A stretch of 34,430 nt of DNA, taken from positions 1-34,430 of the forward strand of contig CAJXJP010000007.1 of the NCBI GenBank assembly GCA_913055215.1. The letters run 5' to 3'. Under the pieces are notes generated by a model, which was not told where the DNA came from, did not search any database, and saw only the letters and a list, made by a program, of their open reading frames with translations. Origin of the DNA: an uncultured Candidatus Altimarinota bacterium (GTDB lineage: Bacteria > Patescibacteriota > Gracilibacteria > BD1-5 > UBA6164). Shown here piece by piece: positions 20,305 through 25,887 of the stretch (the first letter of the stretch is position 1; the number at the start of each line of letters is the position of its first letter). A program made the position numbers and the translations under genes.

Positions 20305-20319
20305 ATTGTCTCTTTTTTT
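20289..20319. terminator. Shared terminator between convergent genes
   Basis: AAGAGACAAT and its complement, flanked by A-run and T-run, span the stop codon of the RNase gene and reach the stop codon of the minus-strand gene. The hairpin can terminate both genes. Confidence 0.82.
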
Positions 20320-21541
20320 ATGCGTACGATATCATTGGTCAATCAGTAAGTTCTTTATAATAATTAACATGTTCTATTGGTACCATTTCTATTTTTTCGC
20401 CATCTGAAAATACTCAATAATCTTCCAAAATTCATGTAAGTCTATGAGTAGCCATTCATGTTTGAATTGGCATTGTAATATATTTGTTATCAATAATATT
20501 CTTTTTAATTGGATCAAAAATACTAACAGCTACATCTTTTCATTTTTTTGAAACGAGTATTACTACTTCTTTTCATTGATACATTAACTCTTTTCAAACT
20601 TGAACATACTCGTGTTTATCCATAAGTGTTTGCATGTTTTTCACAGCATTAAAACGCATTTCGTTTGCTTTATTAACTGCAGAAGTTATTTTCATATCAG
20701 GTTTAGTATCATTGAGATTTCTTTTTACCGTTCTTGCTTTATCCTTTGCTCAACCTATCATATCAGCTACATATTTATCTGCTTTTGCTAATATTTTTGT
20801 TGGAACCGCTATTTTTAAAATTTTAAATACTTTTAATAATTTTGTTGGACTCACAGCTTGAAAAACCATTGGAACGGCAACACCAAGTGTATATTGTAAT
20901 CATTCGACAGCTCCACCTTTATTTTCAGCATTTTCTCAAATCAGAAGATAATCTCTTTTTATATCCTCAACTAAATCTACTCAAGAAGAAGCTAATCATT
21001 CAAGAAGCTCCATCATAAAATCTAATGGATCTGAGAATAATTTAGAATTTTTCAACCCATCCCATAATTGATCCATATCTCCAGGTCATAAGAAATCAAA
21101 CATAGTTTTGAAATCATTCCAAATTTTGTCTAAAGCAATAGATAATCATTCGACTGTTGCTTTTCATAAATCTAAATATCCTCCATCAATTCAAGTATCA
21201 ACAAGTCTTTCTCATGAAACAAGTTTCAATTCTTTCAATTCATCTAAAAGAATCATTGATGATTCTAAATAATCAAAATCAGAATTAATTTTAATATCAG
21301 TATGTTCTGCAAATCTATCCATAACTTTTGAATATTCTGCAACTAAATGTTTATTTTCTGAATCCTCACGAATAGCTGATTGAATTTGAAAATAAGCTAA
21401 ACGAATATCATCTGACACTCTATTTTCAGCTCATTGTAAATTTAATTGATCTTCACAATGTTCTAATCTATCTGTGATAACTTCACTTTTTCCTAATATA
21501 TTTGAGTCCTCTAAGGCATAAAAATCCTGAGCTTCTGTCAT
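20318..21541 (-). CDS. Protein of unknown function paired with a small coiled-coil protein
   Basis: 407 residues with no signal peptide. The N-terminal half is acidic and helical (EDQLNLQGAENRVSDDIR, DFDYLESSMILLDELKEL). A more hydrophobic stretch lies at about residues 230-270 (LQYTLGVAVPMVFQAVSP, LLKVFKILKIAVPTKILA), followed by a basic region and a beta-rich C terminus (KEVVILVSKKGKDVAVSIFD, GEKIEMVPIEHVNYYKEL). I do not recognise it. The architecture (helical front, amphipathic middle, compact end) would fit an exported effector or toxin, but no catalytic motif supports this. The 91-residue gene 14 bases upstream is likely co-transcribed. Many TGA glycines show it is native in code. Confidence 0.75.
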
Positions 21542-21555
21542 TATGCATTTGTTAA

Positions 21556-21831
21556 TTATAAATATAGTTCTTCCAATTTTCCTAATAATTTTTCTAATTC
21601 GTTTTCATCCTCCATATTCGCTTTTGTATTTTCAAAGTCTAACATTGATTTACGTAAACGATTTTGCGAATTTTTTACTTTCATAGAAATATCTTGATTT
21701 CTATCGGCATATTTTCAAAGTATTTCTACTAGTTGTTTCTGATCTATCTGCTCAATATTATCTATAAGCATGTTTTTTACCTCTTTTATAATAGGAAGTT
21801 TTCTGATGATCTGAATAATTCTTTCTGTCAT
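21556..21831 (-). CDS. Small coiled-coil protein of unknown function
   Basis: 91 residues, charged and predominantly helical, with heptad-like spacing in LLGKLEELYL and in ENTKANMEDENELEKLLG. One TGA, read as Gly in ILGKYAD, confirms the frame under code 25. It ends 14 bases before the 407-residue gene and is first in that unit, so it may act as a chaperone, adaptor or partner; this is inference from position and size only. Confidence 0.72.
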
Positions 21832-21897: not shown

Positions 21898-21929
21898 AAA
21901 AAAAAGCGGGTTGACCCGCTTTTTTTTTA
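21898..21929. terminator. Terminator downstream of the MCP gene
   Basis: AAAAAGCGGG-TTGA-CCCGCTTTTT with long A and T runs on both sides. It is one of the most G/C-rich stems in the window. On the minus strand it lies 28 bases past the MCP stop. Confidence 0.9.
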
Positions 21930-21956
21930 TTGTATTGTTTGTACATTCCTCCGATT

Positions 21957-23543
21957 TTATTTTATTTCGTTTGTTTTTTGTTGTAATACTGAAACTGTAT
22001 CAGAATTACTATTTGCGTGTTTTTTTACTTCCTTTGCTCCGTTAGAGATATCAGTAATATTTTGTGACATCTCTGCCATTACAGAGCTTTGTTCTTCAGC
22101 TGCAGTTGCAACTTGTGCACTTTGATCAGTTATACCAATGATACTTTGATCAATTTGCTCCATCCCCGTAATCACACCTTTAGCTTCTTCAGCTGATTTA
22201 TGGATAGTTTCAATTGTTTGCGCATTATTTGCAACCGTTAGATTAACGACATTTAATAATTCTGCAATTGATGTTTCTATGTTTTTAGTAGCTTCTTGTG
22301 TTCTAGAAGCTAACTGTCTCACTTCATCTGCAACAACTGCAAAACCACGTCCCTGTTCACCAGCTCTCGCTGCTTCAATGGCTGCATTTAAAGCCAGGAG
22401 GTTAGTTTGTTCTGCAATCCCACTGATAACGGATATTACATTTTCAATGCTCGATGCAACATCACTCAGCGACTCAATATTTTGAGTCCCATCTTGAGCT
22501 ATATTTACTACAACTTCCATAGTATTTTCAAGATCAACTAATGTTTTCGTAATACTCTTAACTTGTTCTTGAACATTTGAACAAGAATCAGCTGTTAATT
22601 GAGCATTTTGAGCAACTTCAGTAGCAGAAACACCAGTTTCATGTGCAGCAGCAGCAATTTGGTCAATATTCAACTCTTGTGAATCAGCTAGTGACATTAC
22701 TTGAGTTGAAGAAGATTGTAAATCACTCACAAGTGGAGTTACATCATTATCAAAATAATCTTGTAATCGAGACATTTGATCAGAATTTTTTTGAATAACC
22801 TTATTGAGTAGCTCAATAACAGGTAAAAATTCGTCTTTAGACTCCCAGTTAATTGTAGAAGCTCCATTTTGGTTTAAAAGATTATCAAGCGCAGTCATCA
22901 TTGTTGATAGACTCGATTTAAATCCTTTATAGAAAACGGAAGAAATTATAAGTATAAATATGAAAAATATAGCTACCGCAATAACTTCTTTAATGAAAAG
23001 TGCATCTAGACTTTCACTCAAAATATCTTCATAAAAACCTACACCGATAATAATATCTGAATTTGGTATTTTTTGAAAATAAGATAGTTTCTTTCTTGGA
23101 CTATTTTCATCAGCATTTTGCCATGAATACTCTAAGGTCGCAAAGTTGTTCGTAGACTGGGATAAATTACGATTCATCTCAACAAAAACTTTCACACCTT
23201 CTGTATTCTGAACAGACATTAAAGATTTACCATTTAAACTCGGTTTTACCGGATGGTAATACATCTTTATATTCTGGTCAGCAGTATGAGCCCATATGTA
23301 GTTATCACTATTTTTTGAGTGACGTTCTAGCATATTTGAAAAAATACTTTTCTTTTGCTCTAAGCTTAGATTATCATCTAAAGAGACATACGATGCAGAA
23401 ACATATTCTAATAATATCCTAGCATCTTTCGCGTTTGCTTTATGAACTTCATCTTTAGACAACTCTCCCATTGTGTAAACTAATGCCAAAACGGCAAACA
23501 ATAAAACACTTAAAAAAACGACACCTTTCTTAAAAATTGACAT
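21957..23543 (-). CDS. Methyl-accepting chemotaxis protein, likely transferred
   Basis: 528 residues. TM helix 1, about residues 7-25, is followed by a periplasmic Cache-type sensor (about 30-185, with [17 protein letters not shown] and [16 protein letters not shown]) and TM helix 2 (about 187-208, [20 protein letters not shown]). A long helical signalling domain carries the conserved tip with [20 protein letters not shown] and [18 protein letters not shown] near residues 375-420. This would signal to CheA/CheW, neither of which is in the window. The gene is intact, with all 17 glycines GGN and no TGA. A strong SD (GGGGGA), its own promoter and terminator, and phrasing typical of Vibrio-like gammaproteobacterial receptors point to horizontal acquisition. 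A native CPR receptor is less likely. Confidence 0.95.
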
Positions 23544-23572
23544 ATATTTCCCCCGTGTTAGTCAATGTTTGT

Positions 23573-23627: not shown

Positions 23628-23999
23628 TTAATTAGATGAATGCAATCAGATTTCATTTCATTCAGAATCTTCAACATATGCGATAAAACCATATCATTTT
23701 ATAGATTTTTTAGGCATGAGTATTTTTCATCCAGCTGGGATAATTCGTATGAGAATATCATCAATTATACCATCAGCATTTAGATATATTTTTATTCAGT
23801 TTTTTGAAATTTTTTGATTTGGGTCCGAATTAATACATCAGTTAATTTTTCAATCAGAAATATTTAAAAATGGCATAAATTCATATCAACCTGGATCGGA
23901 AATTCTTTCAAATTTTTTATCAAAAATAAAACAGTAAAATGCATATGCACGTTCGAAATGAACAACAGGAATACTAAACCAATTTATTGCGGTTTTCAT
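23628..23999 (-). CDS. VOC (glyoxalase/bleomycin resistance) family protein
   Basis: 123 residues, one VOC module of about two beta-alpha-beta-beta-beta units. It opens MKTAINWFSIPVVHFERAYAFY and ends YGFIAYVEDSEGNEIGLHS, the usual VOC ending with a metal-ligand Glu/His position. Eleven or so TGA codons read as Gly, several at conserved sites (DSEGNEIGLHS). The substrate is unknown. Small VOC proteins of this kind are often single-domain dimers. It follows an unknown gene at 24084-24683 by 84 bases and precedes the MCP on the same strand. Confidence 0.85.
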
Positions 24000-24083: not shown

Positions 24084-24683
24084 TTATAAAAAACAGTAAA
24101 AGTAATTAATAGAGTTATCATCTATCAGAGATTTTAAATTTACCTCTACAAGGCTATCTTTTTGTCAATCAAAACAATAATACGTATCTAATATATTAGA
24201 TGAATCCATGATTTTCACAAAGTTAGTCGCATGTTTTTCTCAATTTCAAAAATGAATTTTATAATCTATATATTCATCTATTTCTCAAATAACAAGTGAA
24301 TCGTAAAATTCACTTTTTAAATTAAATATTAAAATGAGAGCAAATCATTTTTTATAGTTAATTTCCCAGCTAGTTTTATTATTTTTGAATTTATGGATTT
24401 TTGGAATTTTCCAATTATTTTTTTCTGATTTTTCTGAAATAAAATCAATGATACACTGAAATGAGACTCTTATATTTGCTCATTTATGTGAATCAAATAA
24501 ATCATGATTCACCATATTTTGAACTATTTCATCAATATCATCTTTTGATAAATGAATACCACAATTATATTTCAAATTAACAGCTGCTGCAATTAAGTTG
24601 TTTAATATTTTTGTTTTTTTTGCTGGAGATGAGTTGATATGATGGAGTTTTTGGTATGTTTGATTTTTTGTTTTATCTGACAT
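24084..24683 (-). CDS. Hypothetical soluble protein
   Basis: 199 residues, with no signal peptide or membrane segment. The N-terminal third is helical and basic (DKTKNQTYQKLHH, AKKTKILNNLIAAAVNLKYN). The middle has a Trp/Lys-rich stretch and the C-terminal half looks like beta strands (FALILIFNLKSEFYDSLVIGEID, YKIHFGNGEKHATNFVKI). I do not recognise the family. Four TGA codons read as Gly. It is convergent to nothing and diverges from znuA across the operator region. Confidence 0.65.
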
Positions 24684-24828: not shown

Positions 24829-25887
24829 ATGAAAAAATTATTATTTTCAATATTCGTTTTATCTATAGCCTTTTTAGCATCATGTTCAAAAGATACAAAT
24901 ATAGAAACAACTTCTGTAAATGAAGAAAAATCTATTAAAATAGTAGCGAGTGTTCCCCCTATTGCATCAATTGCAAATTATATTGGTTGAAAATATGTTT
25001 CAGTAAGTAGTTTAATTGAACCAGGTTTTTCTCCTCATACCTTTGATTTAAAACCATCTCAAATTATTGCGATGGAAAAAGCTGATTTTATTATTGCTAC
25101 AGGTCTTGGAATTGATAGTTTTATAGAAAAAAACACACAAGAAGATAAACACATTCTTCTGAAAGAATCAGTTCAGTTAATAGAATGAGAAGAACATGAT
25201 CACGACCACGGTGAACACGAAGCTCATACAGATGAACATCACGATGAACATTGACATGAAAACGAGCATCACGATGAACATTGACACGAAGCTGAACACC
25301 ACGATGAACACTGACATGAAAACGAGCATCATGATGAACATAGTAATACAGTGCACAATGAAAATGAAGAAGTATTTTTCGATCCACACTTATGGTTATC
25401 ATTAGAAAATGGTGAAAAAATTGCTGGAAAAGTAACTCAAATTTTATCAGAAAAAAATCCTGAAAATAAAATATATTTTGAAAAAAACTTAGAAGATTTT
25501 AAGAAAAAATCAGAAGAAATAAAAAATAATTTTTCTAAAAAAACAGAAAATAAACAATTAAATAATTTTGTAATTTTTCATGAAGCCTACGGATATTTAT
25601 TTCAAGAAATGAATATTGATGAAACAAAAGTTATAGTTTTACAAGAAACAGCAGGAAGAGAAACATCAGTTTCTGAAATGAAACATATCGTTGATGAAAT
25701 AACTGAACATAAAGTAAAAGTACTTTACAAAGAACCACAATTAGATACAAAATTAATTGATACGTTAGTAGAAAAACATAGCCTACAATTATCTGAATTA
25801 GACCCTCTTGGAAAATCTATTGAAAAAAATGGATATTTTAATACTATAGAATCAAATTTAAATAACCTTTTGATAAGTTATGAATAA
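24829..25887 (+). CDS. znuA: Zinc/manganese ABC transporter substrate-binding lipoprotein
   Basis: 352 residues. A lipoprotein signal (MKKLLFSIFVLSIAFLASC) anchors the protein outside the cell membrane. Cluster A-1 metal sites are visible: PGFSPHTFDLKPSQ, FFDPHLWLS (after the loop), FVIFHEAYGYLF and YKEPQLDTK near the end, with LDPLG. A His/Asp/Glu-rich loop of about 50 residues (about 122-172), with perfect ten-residue repeats, replaces the usual shorter zinc-sensing loop. It overlaps znuC by eight bases. The His-rich loop indicates zinc rather than manganese. TGA codes one Gly in each loop repeat. Confidence 0.94.
25231..25341 (+). repeat. 30-base tandem repeats coding the His-rich loop of ZnuA
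   Basis: Three full 30-base units at 25231, 25261 and 25291 and a partial fourth at 25321 encode DEHHDEHGHE, NEHHDEHGHE, AEHHDEHGHE and NEHHDEHS. The period is ten codons, so unit gain or loss keeps the frame. Units differ at a few bases, mainly at wobble sites and the first residue. Confidence 0.92.

Follow-up and report, generated by a model that had tools for sequence, protein, structure and literature searches.

A chemoreceptor gene free of in-frame TGA, probably acquired, in a code-25 bacterium in which no chemotaxis kinase was found

The closest described counterparts of the chemoreceptor reported here are gammaproteobacterial MCPs with an sCache_2 sensor, receptors whose ligand class is small organic acids and which are represented among solved structures by PDB 2qhk/4exo from Vibrio parahaemolyticus and 5g4y from Pseudomonas syringae. 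Split energy receptors composed of a PAS protein and an MCP are known as the CetB/CetA type. Gene acquisition on a large scale, amounting to 126 genes, is reported for Vampirococcus, a related code-25 bacterium (PMC8080830), code-compatible phages of code-25 hosts have been reported (PMC10746230), and type IV secretion is repurposed in Patescibacteria (PMC12102498). For MCPs of Gracilibacteria or Absconditabacteria, including MCPs without a kinase, we found no description in the open-access library that was searched, which is weak evidence of novelty. The gene described here lies on a contig of an uncultured Candidatus Altimarinota bacterium (CAJXJP010000007.1, assembly GCA_913055215.1), of which positions 1 to 34,430 were analysed and are called the window. 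The assembly comprises 1.39 Mb in 83 contigs, with 94% completeness and 0.43% contamination (genome G000, window contig C7; G and L numbers are our own handles for genomes and loci). The receptor itself is of an ordinary kind, and the unusual part is its genomic setting.

A first-pass annotation, made from the letters of the window alone, had recognised a complete MCP with two TM helices, a sensor and a signalling tip, and Pfam, hydropathy and the full tip bear this out (Table 1). The protein combines a signalling domain and conserved tip with exactly two TM segments by hydropathy (approximately residues 1–29 and 177–210), which lie around a periplasmic-type sensor carrying the sCache_2 family motifs and aligning to 2qhk, 4exo and 5g4y. 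The nearest solved structures are 2ch7 for MCP signalling domains and the Cache domains 2qhk/4exo and 5g4y for the sensor. With its own GGGGGA site, a TAA stop codon and a 13-pair terminator, the gene looks from its sequence like a self-contained transcription unit. Directly after the stop codon of two of the genome's five MCPs stands AATCGGAGG (window 21948-21956; L037 16091-16099), of which only 3 copies occur in 749 kb of the genome; apart from this element common to two MCPs, no conserved border motif was found around imports.

Table 1. Features of the receptor locus in the window and the other MCPs of the same genome
Feature	Coordinates	Strand	Description
MCP gene (contig C7, window)	21957..23543	-	528 aa; no in-frame TGA; 18 GGN glycines; sCache_2 sensor
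TM helix 1	23466..23531	-	~residues 5-26; hydropathy
sCache_2 ligand-binding domain	23010..23441	-	residues 35-178; Pfam PF17200, E 9e-21; structure matches
TM helix 2	22929..22997	-	~residues 183-205; hydropathy
MCP signalling domain	22044..22487	-	residues 353-500; Pfam MCPsignal PF00015, E 8e-37
Hairpin tip	22296..22418	-	residues 376-416; fully conserved; CheA/CheW contact region in known MCPs
Shine-Dalgarno-like GGGGGA	23549..23554	-	5 bases upstream of ATG; sequence
Intrinsic terminator AAAAAAAAGCGGGTCAACCCGCTTTTTTTT	21898..21927	-	13-pair stem, directly 3' of MCP gene
Downstream neighbour, native	20318..21541	-	407 aa; 18 in-frame TGA; no Pfam match
Small native ORF	21556..21831	-	91 aa; 1 TGA
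Upstream neighbour, native, glyoxalase-like	23628..23999	-	8 in-frame TGA
Native ORF	24084..24683	-	199 aa; 6 in-frame TGA; no Pfam match
MCP on contig C20			no recognised sensor
MCP on contig C2			weak PilJ-like N-terminus
MCP on contig C3			PAS+MCP gene pair
MCP on contig C50			FIST-MCP

That the surroundings are those of a code-25 bacterium, as the first-pass annotation had read them, is upheld by the neighbouring genes, whose many in-frame TGA codons (18, 8 and 6) mark the contig as that of a code-25 organism; among these TGA-using neighbours the MCP gene is TGA-free. Across the 749 kb sampled from the genome (~54%), TGA makes up about half of the glycine codons in genes of ordinary expression, and it is also avoided by strongly expressed genes, among them those for RNA polymerase, EF-G and ribosomal proteins. 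Absence of TGA alone was thus rejected as proof of import and, since housekeeping genes are TGA-poor, each gene was compared with genes of similar non-glycine codon usage. In this comparison none of the 18 glycines of the window MCP is encoded by TGA against an expected share of 0.55 (P = 4.7e-7, q = 5e-5), a result matched by the other four MCPs. The TGA-poor genes fall into two sets, highly expressed housekeeping genes on the negative side of the codon-usage axis and a foreign set that includes all five MCPs. A native gene that is highly expressed and avoids TGA in the manner of ribosomal proteins and RNA polymerase would be in keeping with the TGA-poor housekeeping genes of this genome, but this is very unlikely given that the window MCP and RNA polymerase lie at opposite ends of the expression-linked codon axis (+0.15 versus -0.65), and that in the related genome G010 TGA is found even in genes for RNA polymerase and gyrase-like proteins, but not in the MCP. 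Outside glycine, the codons of the window MCP fall within the native spread (z -1.7, against -1.6 to -5.1 for the other imports); this mild atypicality would be accounted for by partial amelioration or an AT-rich donor.

Members of the same TGA-free class are mostly exported and include a subtilase, a frameshifted reprolysin-like metallopeptidase, lipoproteins, exported proteins without a Pfam match and one alkyltransferase-like gene. A terminator stands at the end of 9 of 10 foreign units versus 120 of 368 native genes. An exported protein on contig C50 has TGA only at codon 545 of 548, three codons before the end, and TGA is likewise confined to the old C-terminus in imports of related genomes (G010 MCP, 368/384; G041 MCP, 570/573; G054 CheW, 164/167), the pattern expected where a donor stop codon is read through. 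The metallopeptidase (L169 17958-18841, contig C18) is split by its frameshift, as in a decaying import.

Contamination or a chimeric assembly is extremely unlikely; the MAG is in 83 contigs, but its contamination estimate is 0.43%, all five MCPs lie between TGA-using genes on different contigs, and in G010 and G041 TGA-free genes sit inside 300-kb contigs with native genes around them. The first-pass annotation had named contamination as one outcome that would undo its reading, and the TGA-using genes on both flanks of the window MCP speak against it. In an empty-site test a homologue of the 407-aa downstream neighbour was found in 1 of 47 family relatives, and ZnuA was present in 22 relatives. 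At 24829-25887 the window encodes a lipoprotein-like, metal-binding protein; by eye it resembles ZnuA, and it carries histidine-rich HDEHGHE repeats in tandem.

Consistent with the gammaproteobacterial phrasing noticed at first, the best 80 of at least 594 confirmed relatives are nearly all Gammaproteobacteria, mostly at 27–44% identity, and the best full-length identity of the window MCP among the matches listed is ~30%. In a tree of 111 rows, obtained by a quick search and containing many open forks and long branches, the window MCP is unplaced among gammaproteobacterial MCPs and the five MCPs of the genome form no single group, while a G041 MCP groups with Geobacteraceae and Syntrophorhabdus (SH-aLRT 94). 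Different genera seem to have drawn on different donors, which would fit with different hosts. No relative of the sensor half was found in 84,980 genomes, a tblastn search of plasmids for donors gave the window MCP, among the best matches listed, no hit exceeding 31.5%, and the 151 relatives on viral contigs, many of them near contig ends, include none that is closely similar and revealed no vector. With no donor found, the case for calling this import recent is built on its lack of TGA and its codon usage.

Besides being TGA-free, the receptor proved to be one of five MCPs above the Pfam cut-off in this genome, one on each of five contigs, neither of which had been noticed before. The other four differ from it in architecture and belong to no single clade, and no full native chemotaxis set accompanies them. 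The initial observation that the window holds no che gene extends to the whole contig and to the rest of the assembly: the search for CheA, CheW or Pil-Chp partners that had been proposed recovered no CheW/CheA C-terminal domain, no CheA dimerisation domain, no CheR and no CheB in the 94%-complete genome, that is, neither the CheA/CheW nor the CheR/CheB components of working chemotaxis. FlhA, the flagellar export gate and a mark of flagellar chemotaxis, was absent from 18 genomes including the window's and present in 4 controls. The surprise at a chemoreceptor in a CPR bacterium is justified for this lineage, where no CheA, CheW, CheR, CheB or FlhA was found, but its general premise does not fit six standard-code members of the class (G075, G146, G169, G236, G282, G288; L286-L293), which have MCP, CheW, CheA and CheB. 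FlhA was found in none of these six. One of their operons runs MCP-CheY-CheB-CheA-CheC (Pfam-confirmed), and in another of the genomes, G075, the Che genes adjoin a PilB-like ATPase gene, which suggests that pili in CPR bacteria can be under native chemosensory control. As the same searches find Che sets in these six relatives, such a system would have been detected in the window's genome.

The receptor might nevertheless control type IV pili or another output at home, by way of a divergent kinase or without a kinase at all. The genome encodes PilT- and PilB-like ATPases, its C2 MCP has a weak PilJ-like N-terminus, one class relative carries Che genes beside a PilB-like gene, and a relative discussed below (G033) has kept a recoded MCP. 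We consider such a home function unlikely, as the MCP- or CheW-bearing genomes of the order contain no detectable CheA dimerisation domain and have the CheW domain only in lone CheW or CheV-like proteins, in searches whose sensitivity was established with 7 controls and the 6 relatives from the class. Pil-Chp tuning of type IV pilus movement, one of the roles first proposed, is disfavoured, no ChpA/CheA-type kinase having been found.

MCPs recur across the window's order in genomes without CheA. On contig C3 of the window's genome and in G010 and G019, a PAS_3 protein gene overlaps a membrane MCP gene by 22–28 bases (L042 10709-12496, L268 6839-8393 and L269 6852-8769, respectively), and this shared two-gene layout led us to reject a frameshift in the C3 pair. 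The pairs in these three genera lack TGA, except that the one in G010 has a TGA close to the end that resembles a donor stop; the lone TGA of the C3 MCP is upstream of the likely start. In 361 kb of G010, where TGA accounts for 84% of glycine codons, a significant lack of TGA marks the MCP, the PAS gene paired with it and a gene for an exported glucosaminidase. In 389 kb of G041 (TGA 78%) it marks a lone CheW and two MCPs, with an exported SLT-domain protein (1 TGA) coming next. In these two high-TGA relatives (78–84%) hardly any other gene is free of TGA, so that chemosensory genes look selectively acquired or kept. G054 carries a lone CheW, and G038 a CheV-like protein in which the match to CheW is weak and that to a receiver domain clear. 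Evidence from TGA was left out for G038, G040, G045, G047 and G049 because TGA is sparse there generally. Of two MCP-less controls, G007 has zero TGA-free genes and G017 (L346, L348, L350) about ten over 200 kb, the longest of 1262 aa; no receptor signature occurs among these, and most lack an identification. G017 is another import-rich genome.

Chemosensory genes ordinarily make up ~1–3% of genes, which served as the baseline of an enrichment test. By our own unit counts, 6 of 16 imports are chemosensory versus the 1–3% expected (P <=5e-6, or <=6e-4 with the G017 genes added); as G010 and G041 were picked for holding receptors, the test sets aside one receptor per genome. Given these unit counts and the generic baseline, the over-representation is indicative only.

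The window's family contains nine TGA-free MCPs and one that is fully recoded, that of G033 (L272 7937-9565), in which 47 of 60 glycines are TGA, codon usage is native and the tip is perfect; no CheA or CheW was found in that genome. In G005 and G023 the MCP-like proteins are rich in TGA and their tips have degraded, as expected under loss of selection on the tip. Vertical inheritance was considered for an MCP pair in genus g24 (88% identity in the tip, 41% in the sensor) and rejected, as the flanks differ. Homologous exported proteins of ~95 aa without TGA adjoin an MCP in G041 (L323 11447-11734) and lie near the lone CheW in G054 (L274 9706-9990). In three species of one genus, the same gene (MKKQKKQQI...LLKTLKKLE) adjoins three different MCP or MCP-like genes (L262 8419-10386, L265 94-2052, L275 8418-10400).

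These patterns allow another explanation, namely that the receptors, together with the lone CheW or CheV-like adaptors of relatives, are kept for action in the chemosensory arrays of a host, which they would reach either as protein or as nucleic acid (DNA or RNA) that the standard code can read. In line with this, the MCP-bearing genomes of the order yielded only receptor, PAS-partner and adaptor genes and never CheA or CheB, the TGA-free state in the window's family is nearly all-or-none, chemosensory genes are in excess among TGA-free genes even beyond the gene behind each genome's choice, and the tip is intact in the long-resident, kinase-less receptor of G033. Type IV secretion systems of Patescibacteria are repurposed (PMC12102498), and TGA is avoided by phages of Gracilibacteria that are compatible with code 11 (PMC10746230). 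On the other side, any export signal or delivery route is hypothetical, the absence of CheA alone is not significant because donors have few CheA genes, and the G033 MCP, having TGA in its tip glycines, could be translated only at home. On balance we judge action in host arrays unlikely as well. Production for use in another cell, as first suggested, is conceivable. A bolder version, in which host-dependent code-25 bacteria would repeatedly take MCP, PAS-partner, CheW and CheV-like genes from host-like bacteria and keep them standard-code-readable and kinase-less, steering or disabling host swimming through host arrays, is more doubtful still. Both a home function and action in host arrays keep their weight mainly because of the G033 receptor and the chemosensory preference among imports.

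We posit, with a probability of roughly 0.68, that the window MCP is an acquired gene without an output at home. It would have arrived by horizontal transfer as a standard-code receptor gene, a single transcription unit complete with ribosome site and terminator, and its donor would have been a gammaproteobacterium-like cell of high AT content, plausibly a host or a prey organism. Needing no recoding, the receptor can be translated at home; it is probably produced, placed in the membrane and capable of binding a small ligand, and its signal would stop at the hairpin tip because neither CheA nor CheW is there. As regards signalling at home, the acquired gene is most likely idle or retained only for a time, and the earlier suggestion of retention without function is compatible with this. 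Two observations count against an idle receptor: the long-resident receptor of G033, kept without a visible kinase, argues against it, and neutral uptake would not be expected to favour chemosensory genes. Since these are over-represented among imports, some selection on their acquisition or retention is likely. In-frame TGA acts in this order as a clock of residence, by which recent arrivals can be told from long-standing genes on the same contig with no tree needed. On this reading, chemosensory genes have been imported into several CPR genera that are without the kinase, which points alternatively to an unrecognised output, to action in another cell or to a steady flow of host genes that favours sensors and exported hydrolases.

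Compared with known systems, the window MCP shares the sensor, two TM helices and an intact hairpin with the gammaproteobacterial sCache_2 MCPs, but is only 27–31% identical to them overall and resides in a code-25 genome with no CheA, CheW, CheR or CheB found. The CetB/CetA type resembles not the window MCP but the overlapping PAS and MCP genes of contig C3, G010 and G019, which differ from that type in being without a kinase and TGA-free in their gene bodies, their PAS proteins being 34–46% identical among each other. The standard-code relatives with Che operons have in common with the window's genome an MCP in the same class and no FlhA, and differ in that their MCPs, which form a separate clade, occur with CheW, CheA and CheB. 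Like the code-11-compatible phages of Gracilibacteria and Absconditabacteria (PMC10746230), the imports lack in-frame TGA inside a code-25 host and have a TGA stop that is followed shortly by a backup stop; unlike those phages, they are single chromosomal genes amid native genes, with no adjoining phage genes.
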